Below are positions 6,177 to 41,379 of a DNA stretch of 42,096 nt, one piece after another. Position 1 is the first letter of the stretch, and each line of letters starts with the position of its first letter. Below the pieces are notes generated by a model, which made no database searches, was not told where the DNA came from, and saw only the letters and a program-made list of their open reading frames with translations. The stretch is from Oxalobacteraceae bacterium (GTDB taxonomy: Bacteria; Pseudomonadota; Gammaproteobacteria; Burkholderiales; Burkholderiaceae_D). The position numbers and the translations under genes were made by a program. Location of the stretch: positions 1 through 42,096 of the forward strand of contig RGFZ01000023.1 of the NCBI GenBank assembly GCA_010024875.1. Reading direction: 5' to 3'.

Positions 6177-6929
6177 ATGAACCAAAAACTACTGATCGCC
6201 AGCGCGCTGGCGCTGGGGGGATTTTGCGCATCGGTTTTCGCCGGTCCGAATGAATACGTCTATCCAGCCACGGTCGAGCCAGGAGAGCGCGAGATCGATT
6301 TCAAATTTGGCTCGCGTAACACCAAGGGCCGCAACAATGACGCGGCCGCAGCCTCGATTGGGCTAGGCTATGGCGTCAATGAGCACTGGTTCAGCGAGGT
6401 GTATTTAAAGTATGCACGTGGCCCCGGCGGCCCGACGGAATTCGATGCCATCGAATGGGAAAACCGTTTCCAGCTCACTGAGACCGGAAAATATCCGCTG
6501 GAAATCGGGTTCTTGATCGAGGTCGAGCGCCCGCAAGACCGCAGCGAAGGCTATGAGCTGAAATGGGGCCCGCTGTTCCAGACCGATTTCGGCAAGACAC
6601 AGTGGAACGCAAACCTTCTGTTCGAGCGTAACTACAGCGCTGTCCAGACAGTACATGCAACCGCCTATTACCAGCTCCAGGGCAAGTACCGCTACCGCAA
6701 GGAATTTGAATTCGGCTTCCAGGGCTTCGGCGATCTCGGTCGATGGGATGACTGGTCACCCACCCGCAATCAAGGCCATCGTCTCGGCCCCGCCGTATTC
6801 GGCAAGCTAGGGCTGTCTAACCACCAGGCAGTAAAGTACAACGCCGCCTACCTGATGGGCAGTAATTCGATCGATGGGCGGGGAGTGCGGGGTAATACCT
6901 TCCGTATGCAGCTCGAGTACGAGTTCTGA
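6177..6929 (+). CDS. Predicted outer-membrane beta-barrel protein, co-operonic with FTR1
   Basis: I do not recognise a named family. The 250-residue protein has a clear Sec signal peptide (about residues 1-22, ending VFA-GP) and then alternating polar/aromatic strands rich in Tyr, Phe, Trp and Gly with no hydrophobic helix. It ends LEYEF, and a C-terminal phenylalanine is the usual sorting signature of barrel proteins. An in-frame longer reading into ftr1 exists but starts inside the permease, so the ATG at 6177 just before the signal peptide is chosen. It is the last gene before a strong terminator, so it probably shares Fur-type regulation with the permease. A role as an iron-entry channel is inference from context. 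Confidence 0.75.
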   Translation: MNQKLLIASALALGGFCASVFAGPNEYVYPATVEPGEREIDFKFGSRNTKGRNNDAAAASIGLGYGVNEHWFSEVYLKYARGPGGPTEFDAIEWENRFQLTETGKYPLEIGFLIEVERPQDRSEGYELKWGPLFQTDFGKTQWNANLLFERNYSAVQTVHATAYYQLQGKYRYRKEFEFGFQGFGDLGRWDDWSPTRNQGHRLGPAVFGKLGLSNHQAVKYNAAYLMGSNSIDGRGVRGNTFRMQLEYEF

Positions 6930-10608: not shown

Positions 10609-12063
10609 ATGCAAACTCTCCTCTCTCAGTACTTTCTGATGCTGGCGGCTGTCTCGTTTGGTCTGCTGCTCGCGTCCCTGCCCTACCTCGGCAGCCGCAT
10701 AGAAGGTCGTGCTCATCCGCTGTGGGCGCTATCGCTGGCCATGTTTGCGTCGTCGCTGGGCCTGTTCGCATGGCTAGTCCCGAAAATGACGCAACTAGAC
10801 GTCGCGCAATTCGGGCTGACCACGTTGGCCAACACTCTGCTCTTTGCTGCCGCCTTGCTACAAGCGGCGTTTTTCAGTCACCTGAATGCCAACGGCAAAG
10901 CACCCCCCTACAGTTTCATCGTGAGCATCATCGTGATCTTCGCGATAGTGTTCGATTGGGTTCGTGTGAACATGGGCTTCGACAATCGCGTGATTCTTGC
11001 CGCCGGCGCCGTCGCGCTGACCCTCAGCTGGCAGTTACGTGAAATATACCGGCTACGCCTTACTGAACCCACCTATCAGATCGGACTGCTTTGGTGGATC
11101 ACAGCTGGCGAGCTCGCTTGTGCCATCATCAGGGTCCTCTCTGCAGCGAGTAACGCGACACATGTATTCACTTTTGATCAAATCCCAGTGATTCTGATCG
11201 TTTTCACACTGCTTAACTGCTTTTTAAACATGTTATCGTATGCCGGTATTAGCAAATACTGGGCTGAAAAAATCTCATATGAAAAAGCGCATGCCGAGTT
11301 GGAGAGCGCCGAAATTCGCAAACTGATAGCAGAAAAAAATACGCTGATACTTCAACTGATGGCAGCTAACAAAACAGCTGCTACTGGCGCACTCTCTGCA
11401 ACGCTTGCGCATGAACTATCCCAGCCGCTGACCTCTCTGCATATCAATCTGGTCGCGCTCAAGCGCGAGTCGTCCTCGCAACAAGCACCGCTCAACCGGG
11501 ATCATCTACTTGACCAGTGTCTTGACAGCGCCAGGCGCCTGAACGAGGTTCTCGGCACACTGCGCAGCATGTTCATCGACAAGAGCGCGCGTCACCAGAT
11601 CGTCATTGTCCGCCAAGTCCTCGAAGCGGTGCGTGACCTGATCTCGCAAGAGGCCGCACGCTCAGAGATTGAACTGCGCATCGAGTCTGAGGACGAATTG
11701 AAATTCTGCGGACGACAGAGCGAGCTGCAGCATGCATTGCTCAATCTCGCCATCAATAGTATCCAGGCGCTTCACAACAACGGAGCACAGGACAAGAAGA
11801 TCATTCTGTCGGCAAGCACTAGCGCTGATGGTTTACACATTGGGGTAACAGACAATGGCCCGGGAATTAAAGATGACCAGCTGCCGTGTCTGTTCGCGCT
11901 GATGAATTCCGAAAAACCTGATGGCATGGGAATAGGTTTATGGATTTGTCGGCATATCGCCGAACGCCACCAGGGAACCATTACTCATCGCCCCAACCTT
12001 CCCCGAGGGGCCATATTTGAAATCACGCTACCTCGCGATTCAATGCAAGATTTACCCGCTTAG
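10609..12063 (+). CDS. Membrane sensor histidine kinase, unpaired
   Basis: A 484-residue sensor kinase. Residues 1 to about 215 form roughly seven membrane helices with no large periplasmic domain, followed by a short coiled coil (about 220-250). The HisKA phosphoacceptor is His268 in LAHELSQPLTSLH, the FixL/DctB-type H-box. The ATPase domain shows the N-box LAINSIQAL, G1 DNGPGIKD and G2 GMGIGLWICRHI. No response regulator is adjacent, so its partner is unknown. No clear ribosome binding site precedes the ATG at 10609. The stop is followed by a bidirectional terminator shared with the convergent H-NS gene. Confidence 0.85.
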   Translation: MQTLLSQYFLMLAAVSFGLLLASLPYLGSRIEGRAHPLWALSLAMFASSLGLFAWLVPKMTQLDVAQFGLTTLANTLLFAAALLQAAFFSHLNANGKAPPYSFIVSIIVIFAIVFDWVRVNMGFDNRVILAAGAVALTLSWQLREIYRLRLTEPTYQIGLLWWITAGELACAIIRVLSAASNATHVFTFDQIPVILIVFTLLNCFLNMLSYAGISKYWAEKISYEKAHAELESAEIRKLIAEKNTLILQLMAANKTAATGALSATLAHELSQPLTSLHINLVALKRESSSQQAPLNRDHLLDQCLDSARRLNEVLGTLRSMFIDKSARHQIVIVRQVLEAVRDLISQEAARSEIELRIESEDELKFCGRQSELQHALLNLAINSIQALHNNGAQDKKIILSASTSADGLHIGVTDNGPGIKDDQLPCLFALMNSEKPDGMGIGLWICRHIAERHQGTITHRPNLPRGAIFEITLPRDSMQDLPA

Positions 12064-12140
12064 AAGGCATGGCAAACTTATTCCATTCGCAGAATAAGGA
12101 TCTCGACGTGTCGCAGAAAGATTGAATTTCCATCAAAAAG

Positions 12141-12176
12141 AAAAAGACTGCACGAGCGATCTTGGGCAGTCTTTTT
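12141..12176. terminator. Bidirectional terminator between the kinase and H-NS genes
   Basis: AAAAAGACTGC (12141-12151) and GCAGTCTTTTT (12166-12176) are perfect inverted repeats around a 14-base loop, giving a stem with A-rich and T-rich ends. It can stop transcription in both directions. Confidence 0.88.
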
Positions 12177-12190
12177 AGCCAGCGCAGCGA

Positions 12191-12562
12191 TCAGCGTTTT
12201 TTGATCAGCGCGGCTTCCAATTTCCCAATCTCAGCTAATTCTGCGGCCCACAATGGCATACGACCACGACCGGTCCAGGTTTGCTTTCTGTCGTCGGGGT
12301 TTCGATATTTCGGTGCGATTTTTATTCCTGCCAGCTTACTCGTGCGCTTTGACTTCGTGCCAGCAGGACGTCCGCGTTTTTTTGCGGGCACCGAGGATGT
12401 CGCAATCGTATGTGCAGCGGCCACTGCCTTGTCGATCACTGCGACGATACGATGGAGATTTTTTCTCGTTTCTTTGTCGAGAATGACTTGCTCTAATTGC
12501 GCAATAACAATTTTTTGTTTTTGCAATTTTTTGAACTGATCTTCTACAGATAATCTGGCCAT
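12191..12562 (-). CDS. H-NS family nucleoid-associated protein
   Basis: A 123-residue H-NS-type DNA-binding protein. Residues 1-60 form a helical, coiled-coil oligomerisation region; the linker carries an AT-hook-like KKRGRPAG; the C-terminal domain has the diagnostic TWTGRGRMPLW loop that inserts into the minor groove of AT-rich DNA. A reading from 12652 adds 30 unrelated residues; the ATG at 12562 (MARLSVEDQ) matches the normal N-terminus. Betaproteobacteria usually have several such paralogues, so the precise name is left open. The AT-rich upstream region with a 12-bp palindrome could be a site of autoregulation (inference). Confidence 0.9.
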   Translation of the reverse strand: MARLSVEDQFKKLQKQKIVIAQLEQVILDKETRKNLHRIVAVIDKAVAAAHTIATSSVPAKKRGRPAGTKSKRTSKLAGIKIAPKYRNPDDRKQTWTGRGRMPLWAAELAEIGKLEAALIKKR

Positions 12563-12652
12563 GGAGAACTCACTGCTGAAAATGAGGGCCAATACTAAAT
12601 CATTCAGAGTGTATTTGCACTCGCAATTTGTCAGTTGTTTATTGCCATTCAA

Positions 12653-13131
12653 TTAAAAATTGAACGATGATCTGAATGCATTCATGATTAAGATCAAAAA
12701 TTTTTCTTGAGAGAATTTTTTATAACGAACGACGAAGCGACCATCAATCGTTCATCATGACGCCAACGACTCATCCATCCAAACACTGCTGGAGAACCGT
12801 TGCTCGAGTGAGCAAGATCATCGCTCCAACGGAAATCTGACCCTTACCAAACTGTCTCAGCAGGCTGGCGGCTGGGGCGCAGACAGCGCACACGTACGGC
12901 AAGCGTGTCGCATGCGATACGGACCGTCTGCGGCTCGCATGCAAAGTACACCGTCCTACAAGCCGGTGAGCGCAACGACAGAGATGCCAACGCCACCATC
13001 TCCCTGCCAAGATAGCGTCAAAGCGCACTCTCCGATGGAAATGAGCCAATCGAGTGGCAGCTTGCAAAGCTTGGTTCTGGAGGCACGCGCTGGACGAGAC
13101 TCTGGAAAGTCATTACGCGAGACATCGCAGC
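12653..13131. other. Gene-free region between H-NS and tRNA-Arg
   Basis: The first 110 bases are AT-rich and hold a perfect palindrome TGAATGCATTCA (12673-12684), likely the H-NS promoter region. From about 12740 the composition rises to the level of coding DNA, but every frame of useful length is interrupted or of unnatural composition. On the plus strand short stretches of protein-like sequence appear to hop between frames, as in a decayed gene, yet I recognise no family. No att site or integrase motif was found beside the tRNA. Confidence 0.4.
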
Positions 13132-13167
13132 AAAGAAAAATGGGTTAGTGCTTTTGACACTAACCCA
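13132..13167 (-). terminator. Terminator of the tRNA-Arg gene
   Basis: TGGGTTAGTG (13141-13150) and CACTAACCCA (13158-13167) form a perfect 10-bp stem with a 7-base loop. Read on the minus strand the stem is followed by TTTTTCTTT (complement of 13132-13140), giving a canonical terminator 33 bases after the tRNA 3' end. Confidence 0.85.
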
Positions 13168-13199
13168 TTGATTTTGAGGCACTTTTGGTACTGAAATAA

Positions 13200-13276
13200 T
13201 GGCGCGGCCGGCAGGAATTGAACCCACGACCCCTTGGTTCGTAGCCAAGTACTCTATCCAGCTGAGCTACGGCCGC
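13200..13276 (-). tRNA. tRNA-Arg (anticodon ACG)
   Basis: The minus strand folds as a complete 77-nt tRNA. The acceptor stem GCGGCCG/CGGCCGC is perfect; the D-arm begins TAGCTCAGCTGGATAGAG; the anticodon arm CTTGG-CTACGAA-CCAAG shows anticodon ACG; the T-arm contains GGTTCAATTCC. The discriminator is G and CCA is encoded (complement of 13200-13202). ACG is read as inosine-CG for the CGU/CGC/CGA box. Confidence 0.97.
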
Positions 13277-13337
13277 GTAGACCAAAATTATAACATCAGA
13301 AAAACTGTTTGGGTTAGGCCTCCCAGCGACTCTGTTA

Positions 13338-13601
13338 CTAGCGTTTCGGCCGGTAGAGATCATGTCCTGCTTCATGAATCTGCTGCCGCAGCGCACGGCG
13401 CTCCTCGGGGGACAGGCGCGGCGGACGACGATCGTCATCGCGCTGACGGGCTTCCTCGGATCGACGCTCCCCGGCCGGCTGATCGCGCGCGCGCTCCGGC
13501 CCTGGTCTCTGCTCATTGCCCTGCGAGGGCGGTACGGCCACGGATAATCCCGGCCGGCCAAGCAGAACCACTAGAAATGAAAGAGCGAGGCGGTGCTTCA
13601 T
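13338..13601 (-). CDS. Small secreted, Arg/Glu/Pro-rich protein
   Basis: No family is recognised. The 87-residue protein starts with a Sec-type signal (MKHRLALSFLVVLLG, likely cleaved before VPPSQG) and continues as a very charged, low-complexity chain of Arg, Glu, Pro, Gln and Asp, ending with an LSPEERRALRQQI segment that looks helical. Similar short proteins of the PPPRLSPEERRxLR type are common in Burkholderiales as hypothetical exported proteins. A longer reading from 13706 adds 35 residues with no export signal in front, so the ATG at about 13601 is preferred, though no ribosome binding site is seen. It is divergent from ompR and could share its control region. Confidence 0.6.
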   Translation of the reverse strand: MKHRLALSFLVVLLGRPGLSVAVPPSQGNEQRPGPERARDQPAGERRSEEARQRDDDRRPPRLSPEERRALRQQIHEAGHDLYRPKR

Positions 13602-13712
13602 CGGGGGTAGGATCACAACTGAGCGAGGCAAGGCGCAGCAGACTTTGTAAAGCTTTGTAATCATTGGTCTGCCGCATGCGGTGGATGACAGGATCGACGT
13701 TACCATACGGCC

Positions 13713-20056: not shown

Positions 20057-23000
20057 TTGCAGATCATGCCCTTAAGTCCTGCCACACCGCTGCCCAAACC
20101 CGGCCACCGATTCGTGCTTCCTGCGCTGCACGGCGCGGCGGAAGCGTTCGTGCTTGCGCAAGCCGCGCATGAATTGAAGGCCAGCGGTCGAATGCTTGCC
20201 ATCGTCGTCGCCGATGCGCCCAATGCGCAACGCTTGCTGGCCGAAATCAGCTGGCTAGGCAAGACCGGCACTGACAACCTACGTTGTCATCTGCTGCCCG
20301 ATTGGGAAACCCTGCCCTACGATCAATTCTCGCCACATCAGGATCTGGTATCAGAACGACTAGCGACGTTGCATGAAATCCAGAGTGGCGAATGCGATGT
20401 GCTGATCGTTCCTGCCACCACGGCGCTGGTGCGCATGGGGCCGCCATCATTTCTCGCCGCTTATACCTTCTTCTTCAAGCAGGGCGAGCGTCTGGATGAA
20501 AACAAGCTGAAGTCACAACTGACGCTCGCCGGCTATCACCATGTCGGACAAGTCATGTCGCCAGGCGAGTACTCAGTGCGCGGTGGGCTGATCGATCTGT
20601 TCCCAATGGGCTCGGCGCTGCCCTACCGGCTCGACTTGTTCGGCGACAGCATCGAAAGCATACGGACCTTTGATGTCGATACCCAGCGCTCACTGTACCC
20701 CGTGAAAGAAGTCCGGATGCTGCCGGGTCGCGAATTCCCTATGGATGAGAGCGCGCGCAGCGCCTTCCGCAGCCGTTGGCGGGAAGCGATCGAGGGCGAT
20801 CCCAGCCGATCTCACGTGTATCGCGACATCGGTAATGGGATTGCCTCTGCGGGTATTGAGTACTACCTACCACTGTTTTTCGAACATACCGTAACGCTTT
20901 TTGAATATCTGCCAGACAGTTGCGGCGTCGCTCTGATCGGCGATATCGATGCCTCGATCAAGCGCTTCTGGAATGACACTCGCTCGCGTTACAACTTCCT
21001 GAAAGCTGACCGCGAGCGCCCATTACTGGCGCCCGAGCAGATCTTCCTGACAGATGAAGATTTTTTTACACTGATCAAGCCACATGGTCGCTGGGTGTTG
21101 CAAGAAGATGCCTCCGCCTCTGCGCTTTCCTCGCCGCTACCAGATATCGCTGTCAACCGACGGCTTGATGACCCATTGAGTAATCTCCGTTCGTTCGCGT
21201 TGCAGACCCCGGCGCGGGTGATGATTTGCGCCGAGTCCAGCGGACGCCGAGAAACCCTGCGCGACTATTTCAGCGAATACGATCTTCCGTTGTCCGTCTG
21301 CGAGAACCTTGACGATTTCAACAGGCAAACAGACAAGTTGATGCTATGCGTCGCCCCGCTGCATGCTGGCTGCATCTTGTCGACTGAGCTAGGCGGTATC
21401 GCGTTCATCACCGAAACCGAGCTGTATGCTGGCAGCGGCCGCCGTGCAGGTCGTCGTAAACAAGAAGCCGTCACTCAGGTCGATGCGATGGTTCGCGATC
21501 TGTCCGAGCTGAAAATCGGCGACCCCGTGGTACATATCAATCACGGGATCGGTCGTTACCACGGGCTGATCAGCATGGATCTGGGTGAGGGCGAGACAGA
21601 ATTTCTCCACCTCGAATACGCAAAAGAAACCAAGCTGTATGTGCCCGTCTCGCAGCTGCACGTGATCTCGCGCTACTCTGGTGCCGCGCCCGAAGATGCT
21701 CCGTTGCATGCGCTCGGGTCAGGCCAGTGGGATAAGGCCAAGCGCAAGGCGGCCGAGCAAATACGCGACACGGCTGCCGAGCTGCTGAATCTGTACGCAC
21801 GCCGCGCCAGCCGGCAGGGTCATGCGTTCCAGTACTCTGCGCACGACTATGACGCGTTTGCCGAGTCCTTCGGATTCGAAGAGACTCCCGATCAATCCGC
21901 GGCAATCCACGCGTCGCATTGCGGGCAACGTTTGTCGCCGTCATGGGCGGTAAACAAGTGGCAATCCTGGCACCCACTACGCTGCTGGCAGAACAACACG
22001 CGCTGACTTTTGCTGACCGCTTCGCGGACTGGCCAGTGCGCATCGCCGAGCTGTCGCGCTTCCGCACCGGAAAGGAAGTCACGCAGGCGCTGAAGGGGCT
22101 GGCCGAGGGTACCATCGATATCGTGATCGGCACCCACAAGCTGCTGTCCTCTGATGTCAAATTCCAGCGCCTCGGGCTAGTAATCATCGATGAAGAGCAT
22201 CGTTTCGGCGTACGCCAGAAAGAGGCGTTGAAAGCCCTGCGCGCCGAGGTCGATGTGCTGACACTCACTGCCACGCCGATTCCGCGTACCTTGGGCATGG
22301 CGCTGGAAGGTCTGCGCGATTTCTCAGTCATCGCAACCGCGCCGCAAAAACGGCTGGCCATCAAGACATTTGTGCGCGGCGAATCCGATTCCATCATTCG
22401 CGAAGCCTGTCTGCGCGAGCTCAAGCGCGGTGGACAAGTGTACTTCTTGCATAATGAGGTCGAGACAATAGAAAACCGCAAGGCCAAACTCGAAGAACTG
22501 TTGCCGGAGGCGAGAATTGCTATTGCACACGGCCAGATGCATGAACGCGAACTTGAAAAAGTCATGCGTGATTTTGTCGCGCAGCGCTTCAATATCTTGT
22601 TGTGCACGACGATCATCGAAACCGGCATTGATGTGCCAACCGCGAACACCATCATCATGCATCGTGCTGACCGCTTTGGTCTCGCGCAACTGCATCAGCT
22701 GCGCGGTCGCGTTGGTCGATCGCATCATCAGGCCTATGCGTATTTGCTGGTCCATGATGTGCAATCACTGACTAAGCAAGCCGAACGTCGACTGGAAGCG
22801 ATCCAGCAAATGGAAGAACTGGGCAGCGGTTTTTATCTCGCGATGCACGATCTTGAAATTCGTGGTGCAGGCGAGGTTCTGGGTGAAAATCAATCCGGCG
22901 ACATGACCGAGATCGGCTTCCAGCTGTACTCGGACATGTTGCATGCCGCTGTCAAGGCACTAAAGAATGGCAAAGAACCTGATCTGGCAGCGCCCTTGTC

Positions 23001-23436
23001 CACGACCACCGAAATCAATCTGCATGTACCCGCCCTGCTGCCCGCTGATTTCTGCGGTGATGTGCATGAACGGCTGTCGATCTACAAGCGACTCGCCAAT
23101 TGTGAAACTGCGGATTCCATCGACGATATGCAGGAAGAATTGATCGACCGCTTCGGCAAACTCCCCGATGCGGCCAAGGCACTGATCGAGACCCACCGAC
23201 TGCGGCTGTCTGCGAAAAAAGTCGGTATCGTGAAGATCGATGCCCATGCCGAGTCAGCACTGTTGCAGTTCGAACCCAAGCCACCGATTGATCCGATACG
23301 CATCATCGACCTGATACAAAAAAGTCGTCATATCAAGCTTTCCGGCCAAGACAAACTTCGCATCACTGCCAACATGCCCGACCTGTCTACGCGAGTGTCT
23401 CAGGTCAAGGCAACGATCAAGGCGCTGGCTGCCTGA
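20057..23436 (+). pseudogene. mfd: Transcription-repair coupling factor Mfd, disrupted by an internal deletion
   Basis: Mfd removes stalled RNA polymerase and recruits UvrA. Two frames together give a nearly full protein. The first (20057 to about 21913) covers the UvrB-like region and the RNA-polymerase-interacting domain (GDPVVHINHGIGRYHG) up to TPDQSAAIHA. The second frame resumes at about 21913 with VALRATFVAVMGGKQ and runs through DEEHRFG, the translocase motifs and the C-terminal D7 domain to the stop at 23436. Between them about 25 residues normally present, including Walker A GDVGFGKTE, are missing: roughly 76 nt by comparison with the E. coli protein (619 + 25 + 507 = 1151 residues, the usual length). 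As written, the product is a 649-residue truncated protein ending at 22006. The start may instead be the ATG at 20066. Confidence 0.9.
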
Positions 23437-24299: not shown

Positions 24300-24313
24300 G
24301 TCAGGATCAGACA

Positions 24314-29920: not shown

Positions 29921-29998
29921 GCGATCTCCCCCGTATTAAAACCGCCGTTTTCGCGTATGCTGCGCGCCATCGATGGGATAACTTGGCAAGAGGAGCGC

Positions 29999-32014: not shown

Positions 32015-32053
32015 CGGCGCATCAAATTTTCCGCGCAAGCGCCCCGCCCCATA

Positions 32054-32922: not shown

Positions 32923-33482
32923 TTACCCCTGCTTGCGCCGAAATACCCAGCGTGCCTCATCCGAGGCCGCTGGCGCGAATGCATAACCCTCTGTGTCAAA
33001 AGCCTTCAGCTTCTCTGGTGTGGTGATTTTTTTCTCGATCGCGTAGCGCGCCATCAGCCCGCGCGCACGCTTGGCGTGGAATGAAATGATCTTGTACTTG
33101 CCGCCCTTCCAATCCTCGAAAACGGGCGCGATCACCGGTACCGGCAGATCGTCCGCGTGGACTGCCTTGAAATACTCCTCCGAGGCCAGATTCACCAGTG
33201 CTTTTGATTTGAGCGACTTGAGCGTGTCGGCCAGATGGCCCGTGAGTTCATCGCCCCAGAAGGCATACAGATCCTTACCCCGCTGGGTCTGCAGGCGAGT
33301 CCCCATCTCCAGACGATACGGTTGCATCAGATCCAGCGGACGCAGCAGCCCATACAGCCCCGACAAGATGCGCAAATGATCCTGTGCCCCGAACGCGGGA
33401 TAAAATCCGGCAAGGTATGTACGTCCGTAGTCAGCGGTGATTCATAGTCCAGCGTCTTCGCCGGCGACAAGACCATCAGCAT
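32923..33482 (-). pseudogene. yaaA: Peroxide stress protein YaaA, disrupted by an internal deletion
   Basis: YaaA (DUF328) lowers intracellular iron and DNA damage under peroxide stress. The N-terminus is perfect: GGAG eight bases before the ATG at 33482, then [19 protein letters not shown] to FIPRSG at about 33388. The other end is also perfect in another frame, from about 33384 with [19 protein letters not shown] to the stop at 32923. About 72 residues that join them in the E. coli protein are absent (32 + 72 + 153 gives the normal 257), and the frame shifts at the joint. As written only a 50-residue aberrant peptide is made. The flanks show no further stops or decay, so the event is recent or an assembly error. 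Confidence 0.88.
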
Positions 33483-33512
33483 GAGCTGCACTCCTTCAGA
33501 TAATTTCCCAGA

Positions 33513-34025
33513 ATGATACCGAAAGCAAGCTCTGTGTTCAGACATCGCGTCGTGCTCGATACCAACGTTTGCCTCGACCTGTTCATGTTTCGGGATCCAC
33601 GATGGCAGGTGCTGCTGGAGTCGCTCATCTGTGGGGAGATCGAGGCATTTACCCGGCACGATTGCCGGCGCGAGTTCGAACTGGTGCTCGCCTATGACAA
33701 GATGAAACTCTCGGCAGAGTCGCAGGCGGCGATACTGACTGAATTCGATCAGCGGATACGGCCGTATGCAAGCAGTGAAAAGATTGAGGCTGGCGCGATG
33801 GCTGGTGGACTACCGGTTTGCAAGGATAGCGATGATCAGAAGTTCCTGGAGCTCGCGCTGGCATGCGAAGCAGATGTACTGATCACCAAGGACAAGGCCT
33901 TGCTGAAGCTGGCGCGCAAGACCGCGCGCAACGGGCAGTTCAAAATATTGGCACCGCAGGCATGGCTGGTATGGTTTGCAGCGTTGAAATGTTCGCAGAT
34001 CAGCGCCGAGCCTGCAGATCTTTGA
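33513..34025 (+). CDS. PIN-domain protein (putative toxin component family, TIGR00305-like)
   Basis: A 170-residue PIN-fold nuclease-like protein. Asp16 in VVLDTNVCLDLF and the late acidic motif CKDSDDQKFLELA...VLITKD are the expected metal ligands of single-stranded RNA nucleases. It belongs to the PIN group annotated as putative toxin of toxin-antitoxin systems, but no small antitoxin gene precedes or follows it, so a housekeeping RNase role is equally possible. It is divergent from yaaA, with only 30 bases between start codons, and ends before a terminator. No ribosome binding site is clear. Confidence 0.8.
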   Translation: MIPKASSVFRHRVVLDTNVCLDLFMFRDPRWQVLLESLICGEIEAFTRHDCRREFELVLAYDKMKLSAESQAAILTEFDQRIRPYASSEKIEAGAMAGGLPVCKDSDDQKFLELALACEADVLITKDKALLKLARKTARNGQFKILAPQAWLVWFAALKCSQISAEPADL

Positions 34026-40331: not shown

Positions 40332-41379
40332 TCAGGCTGCATGCACAAAACCCGGTTGCACGACGAAACGCGCCAGATGATGGTCAGTATCTCCCAGCGT
40401 CAGTTCGATCGCTGACAGGCGTTTGAAGTAGTGAGCAGCAGGCATCTCATTGGTCACGCCCATACCGCCATGCAGCTGCACCGCCTGCTGACCGACGAAC
40501 TTCATCGCTTCGCCAACACGCGCCTTGGCAGCAGAGACGATACGACGGCGCTCAGCCACATCCGAAGACGACACCTTCACTGCGGCCAGCATAGTCATCG
40601 AGCGCGCTTGTTCCAGCTGCATGAACATGTCGGCCATGCGATGCTGCAAGACTTGGAATTTACCGATAGGCACACCGAACTGCTGGCGGGTGCGAATATA
40701 CTCCAGGGTCGCCGCCTGTAGCGCCTCCATCGCACCGAGCGCCTCGGCGCACAACAGTACCGCACCGTGATCGGCGGCTGCATCCAGCAAATCCCATCCC
40801 TTGCCTTCAGCACCCAGCAGCGCGCTGGCAGGCACTCGCACATCCGAGAAGCGAACGGTGGCAATGCGCAGTCCGTCGTTGCTGCGTGCATCGCGAATAC
40901 TGATTCCGGCGGTGTGCGCAGGAATCACGAACAGCGAGATGCCCTGCTCGTGCATCGCCATCGCGGCGCGCACCTACAGCGATATCTTGCAACTCGTGCC
41001 GCGACTGGCGCTCATTCAGCGCGCAGGCAAGCTTTAGTTCACCGCTGGCCACTTGCGACAGCAGCTCCCCATGACTGCCCGCCAGTTTCAGGAATTCCAC
41101 GCCCAGCGCATTGGCAAACACCGGCTCGACGACCAGCGCTCGCCCCAGGGTCTGCATCACGACCATCTGATCGACCGGCGTGCCATCAAAACCCTCATGA
41201 TCCGAAGGCACCGGCAAGGCCAGCACGCCCAGCTCGGCCAGCGCCTGCCATGCGGACCCGGAAGTACCGGTGTCGGAATGGATAATCTGCTTGCGTTTCT
41301 CGAAGCCGTAATCCTTCTCGGTCCAGCGCGTGATCGCATCGGACAATTGCTGCTGCTCGGGGGAGAGATCAAAGTCCAT
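40332..41379 (-). pseudogene. Acyl-CoA dehydrogenase, PimD-like small subunit, disrupted by an internal deletion
   Basis: The N-terminal part (41379 to about 40960) reads cleanly from MDFDLSPEQQQLSDAITRW, with GAGGAGA before the ATG, to ALNERQSRHELQDIAV and ARRDGD. The C-terminal part resumes in another frame near 40960 with HEQGISLFVIP and continues through FSDVRVPASALLG, QFGVPIGKFQVLQHR and QAVQLHGGMGV to the stop at 40332. By comparison with pimeloyl-CoA dehydrogenase small subunits some 30-35 residues of the beta-sheet domain between DGD and GISLF are missing, and the frame changes. As written the enzyme would lack its catalytic half. It follows the large-subunit gene by nine bases. Confidence 0.85.

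Follow-up and report, generated by a model that had tools for sequence, protein, structure and literature searches.

Mfd, the translocase of transcription-coupled repair, is encoded in this record in two different frames, and its Walker A loop is missing at the point where the frame changes. This raises the question of whether the organism has lost a working translocase or whether the assembled sequence has lost a piece of an intact gene. The stretch analysed, called the window below, is 42,096 nt long and is contig 136 of the genome. The genome comprises 3,024,353 bases in 243 contigs, is 96.7% complete with an estimated contamination of 3.19%, and looks like a metagenome-assembled genome.

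The mfd gene and its joint

The mfd gene occupies positions 20057 to 23436 of the plus strand, with the frame change between 21912 and 21913. The left part (20057–21912) translates faultlessly from about 20057 to TPDQSAAIHA at about 21913, and is followed in the same frame by 30 out-of-frame residues and a stop at 22004–22006. Its domains are those of UvrB interaction, D3 and RNA-polymerase interaction (RID), after which the translocase begins. The corresponding N-terminal Pfam models (UvrB_inter, MFD_D3 and CarD_TRCF_RID; PF17757, PF21132 and PF02559) all scored over their cut-offs. The right part (21913–23436, plus strand) lies in another frame, opens with VALRATFVAV, of which the V and A codons are 21913–21918, and carries the remaining helicase domains and the TRCF domain through to the stop at 23434–23436. 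Its C-terminal matches in Pfam are DEAD (profile positions 44–163 of 167), Helicase_C and TRCF. The translations of both parts bear out the passage from TPDQSAAIHA to VALRATFVA that the initial annotation had read as a frame change. Both parts also match the NCBIfam model of Mfd, TIGR00580, over complementary stretches, the left part covering positions 2–444 of its 907 and the right part positions 472–906. What the record lacks of an Mfd protein is the Walker A loop, the codons of which are absent, and a single frame over the whole length, broken at 21912/21913. We nevertheless count the gene as a member of the Mfd family, because we take the absence of the loop to be an assembly fault.

The extent of the gap was established by aligning the window with 16 relatives across the joint, 15 of the same genus and one of the same family. 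Exactly 76 columns are absent from the window between 21912 and 21913, within the interval 21900–21925 where the joint had been placed beforehand and in agreement with the previous estimate of about 76 nt. The initial annotation had also proposed that the P-loop GDVGFGKTE was lost and had called for a comparison with the mfd of relatives. This comparison found the 76-nt segment in all 16, with GDVGFGKTE, the Walker A loop, encoded inside it. The best split point is 21912, with zero slack. Among 20 congeners, 16 have one open frame across the site and four (G010, G011, G013 and G015) have no contig there. The nearest congener, G019, is 89% identical to the left part and 96% identical to the right part; among the matches listed for the right part, the best with a name are from Burkholderiales (Duganella, Massilia and Undibacterium; 86–88% identity). 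Both parts look constrained relative to G019, with dN/dS values of about 0.04 (left) and 0.02 (right), an estimate which, at a dS above 1, is unable to date a very recent event.

Gene order relative to G019 is unbroken on both sides of the joint, from 8781 to the end of the window. The flanks are therefore true neighbours minus a piece. We considered the possibility that the joint is a chimera of two organisms, but this was unsupported, since gene order follows G019 on both sides and both halves have their best match in G019. DNA and protein searches of the same genome for a second copy of mfd, or a stray piece of it, found neither. The 901-base DNA search matched only the window itself, the search with the left part gave one extra weak match (27%, on C238), and the search with the right part returned, among the matches listed (2 of 3), the window itself and, at 40%, a match on C158, which we take for recG by its family resemblance.

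Missing segments in other genes of the assembly

Comparison of the window with the frames of ten relatives revealed at least two more genes in which a piece is cleanly absent and the frame changes, both relative to G019 and to another congener, G003. These are the gene for the peroxide stress protein YaaA (yaaA; 32926–33524, minus strand), from which 214 nt are absent at about 33389/33390, and an acyl-CoA dehydrogenase gene (40335–41379, minus strand), from which 92 nt are absent at about 40945–40953. Both names are taken from the intact genes of G003; for the dehydrogenase, the nearest model, pimeloyl-CoA dehydrogenase small subunit, scored below its cut-off. The frames of G019 compared with the window gave five frame-changing junctions, the losses of 76, 92 and 214 nt and two small shifts; the reverse comparison gave one in 31, where the frame lies opposite a gene that can be annotated. 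The small shifts (+2 nt near 29928 and +1 nt near 32024) lie at the starts of two minus-strand genes. They are absent relative to G003, may reflect G019 frames extended at the start, and were left uncounted.

The test was then taken over 1,002,780 bases of this genome (about a third of it, window included), with frames from 1,187,832 bases of G003 as the reference (G+C content 48%, versus 57% in this genome) and an identity limit of 65%. A frame-changing junction was found at 7 of 268 gene places, three of them inside the window. All seven are net losses, of 70, 76, 92, 124, 149, 193 and 214 nt, in genes that are otherwise in frame; neither frame-changing insertions nor shifts of 1–2 nt were found in the 268 places. 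The genes concerned are unrelated. Besides mfd, yaaA and the dehydrogenase gene, they are clpA (149 nt, L155 near 17684), sucA (193 nt, L243 near 6875; G000:C178), a RelA/SpoT family gene (124 nt, L251 near 8990) and an fnr-like regulator gene (70 nt, L147 near 8352). Because the window had been picked for its mfd break, counts outside it were computed separately, with frames of at least 150 aa and an identity limit lowered to 60%. Five of 236 places were broken, including one extra, unnamed gene with a 113-nt loss (L145 near 3590) seen at this lower limit.

Other length differences fall outside these counts. In-frame gaps of at least 12 aa relative to G003 were left out; there are four in this genome (−78, −51, −54 and +36 nt) and two in the reverse comparison. 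The 78-nt gap lies in sucA, beside the 193-nt loss (L243, about 6309–6875; G000:C178). Relative to G019, the window also shows net length differences, in most of which it is the shorter, for example −1005 nt at about 12.1 kb, −159 at 13.3 kb, −112 at 24.3 kb, −155 at 27.3 kb, −167 at 34.0 kb and +101 at 39.8 kb. Those within 12034–13626 and 24307–24313 are −1005, −95, −159, −43 and −112 nt. These differences lie mostly between genes and are likewise outside the break counts.

As controls, the frames of G003 were compared with the mfd neighbourhood of nine congeners, at an identity limit of 60%, and the frames of this genome with G003. The first control gave no break in 213 places, the second one in 249; this break is a difference of 26 nt, and the gene concerned is less conserved. 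By Fisher's test, 7/268 differs from 0/213 with p = 0.019, from 1/249 with p = 0.070 and from both controls pooled with p = 0.0047. Outside the window alone, 5/236 gives p = 0.063 against 0/213 and p = 0.019 against the pooled controls (1/462). Clean losses thus recur in unrelated genes of this assembly, both with the window and outside it, and by the same test are rare in close relatives, though the break counts are small and most of the test leans on the single reference G003. The make-up of the events, always a loss, of 70–214 nt, in unrelated genes, weighs more than the small counts. With named Burkholderiales references (best 80 loci listed), 14 places in the window gave one break, that in mfd; the 15 places outside the window gave none, nor did controls of 28 and 35 places, numbers too few to weigh.

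Origin of the missing segments

The missing 76 nt of mfd are very probably an assembly fault in this 243-contig draft. We favour this explanation because clean losses recur in unrelated genes here (7/268), against none in 213 places of nine congeners. The initial annotation had left the cause between a very recent deletion and an assembly fault; of the two, the latter has gained from these counts and the former is now less favoured. On this explanation, two correct neighbouring pieces of mfd would have been butt-joined and the short middle piece with the Walker A codons omitted, and the same fault would have taken 70–214 nt out of the other genes. The step responsible might be, for example, the closure of a scaffold gap without N, which is a guess. 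No N letter occurs in the 1.0 Mb of the genome examined, which fits gaps closed unmarked without proving it. The organism's own mfd would accordingly be expected to be intact.

Two ways in which particular pieces could have dropped out were considered. Deletion by recombination between short repeats was unsupported, as the slack of the best splits never exceeds 2 nt at the seven joints and is zero at mfd; the split point of the dehydrogenase is the less firm, its joint being poorly aligned (75 matches in 133). The lost pieces might also be stretches common to related species in the sample. For three of the seven (mfd, yaaA and the dehydrogenase), we measured the fraction of background windows at least as conserved as the lost piece. 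The mfd piece is about average (0.18, 0.43, 0.65 and 0.37 for G019 versus G003, G008, G014 and G018), while most windows are more conserved than the yaaA piece (0.73–0.89) and the dehydrogenase piece (0.95–0.98 in three comparisons, G018 giving no alignment). This idea was therefore unsupported too and, the pieces being not unusually conserved among relatives, conservation does not give the reason why these particular ones dropped out.

The strongest of the other explanations is a real and very recent 76-nt deletion, fixed in the lineage. The clean joint and the otherwise intact parts of mfd are what such an event would leave, and the constraint estimate, made with a relative at a dS above 1, is unable to date it. 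The cell would be left with about 620 residues of Mfd (UvrB-like module, D3 and RNA-polymerase-interaction domain), followed by the 30-residue out-of-frame tail; without a working translocase, Mfd-dependent transcription-coupled repair would be lost. Genes truly lost in recent times would often be expected to show shifts of 1–2 nt. No such shift accompanies the like losses in the six other genes, all unrelated, of this assembly, and the 213 places in nine congeners contain no loss of this kind, so that we consider a real deletion improbable. Slightly less probable still is its extended form, a free-living betaproteobacterium that very recently lost the translocase by a real 76-nt deletion together with near-simultaneous short deletions in several other genes. 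If true, this lineage would live in nature without transcription-coupled repair and have a genome prone to deletions. The initial annotation had drawn a similar consequence, lost transcription-coupled repair and a raised or changed mutation pattern. This holds only for a real deletion and is unsupported, because the evidence, with losses recurring in unrelated genes (7/268), favours an assembly fault.

We also considered a mixture, in which the deletion would be present in part of the sampled population and the assembler would have retained the minor form. A mixture of strains is possible given the estimated contamination and the number of contigs, but it would have to hold for at least seven unrelated genes simultaneously, which makes it very unlikely. 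That Mfd is genuinely split or frameshifted, working as two proteins or through programmed frameshifting, can practically be dismissed: both halves are open and conserved, but the residues that are missing, Walker A loop included, could not be restored by a frameshift, and none of the 16 aligned relatives is split at this site.

Assembly fault thus remaining the preferred explanation, the finding is an ordinary one biologically, and its value lies in the caution that it calls for with this genome assembly. About 2–3% of the tested gene places (7/268) have clean missing segments unmarked by N. Apparent losses of function in this genome are therefore not to be read as biology without the reads.

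Comparison with known systems

In its domains, their order and the sequence of both parts, the gene resembles Mfd as described by TIGR00580 and NF007966, from which the record differs by the absence of 76 nt, Walker A codons included, and by the frame change at that place. Walker A mutants of UvrA and UvrB are among the subjects treated in PMC3025350. Another parallel is the spurious pseudogenes of Cooley and Wright (2024, PMC11017572). According to that paper, assembly errors account for many of the genes in bacterial assemblies that appear frameshifted or stopped, and inflated counts of internal stops mark poor assembly. The likeness lies in apparently broken genes that arise from errors of assembly. 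The difference is that here the events are net losses of 70–214 nt, in a draft resembling a metagenome bin.
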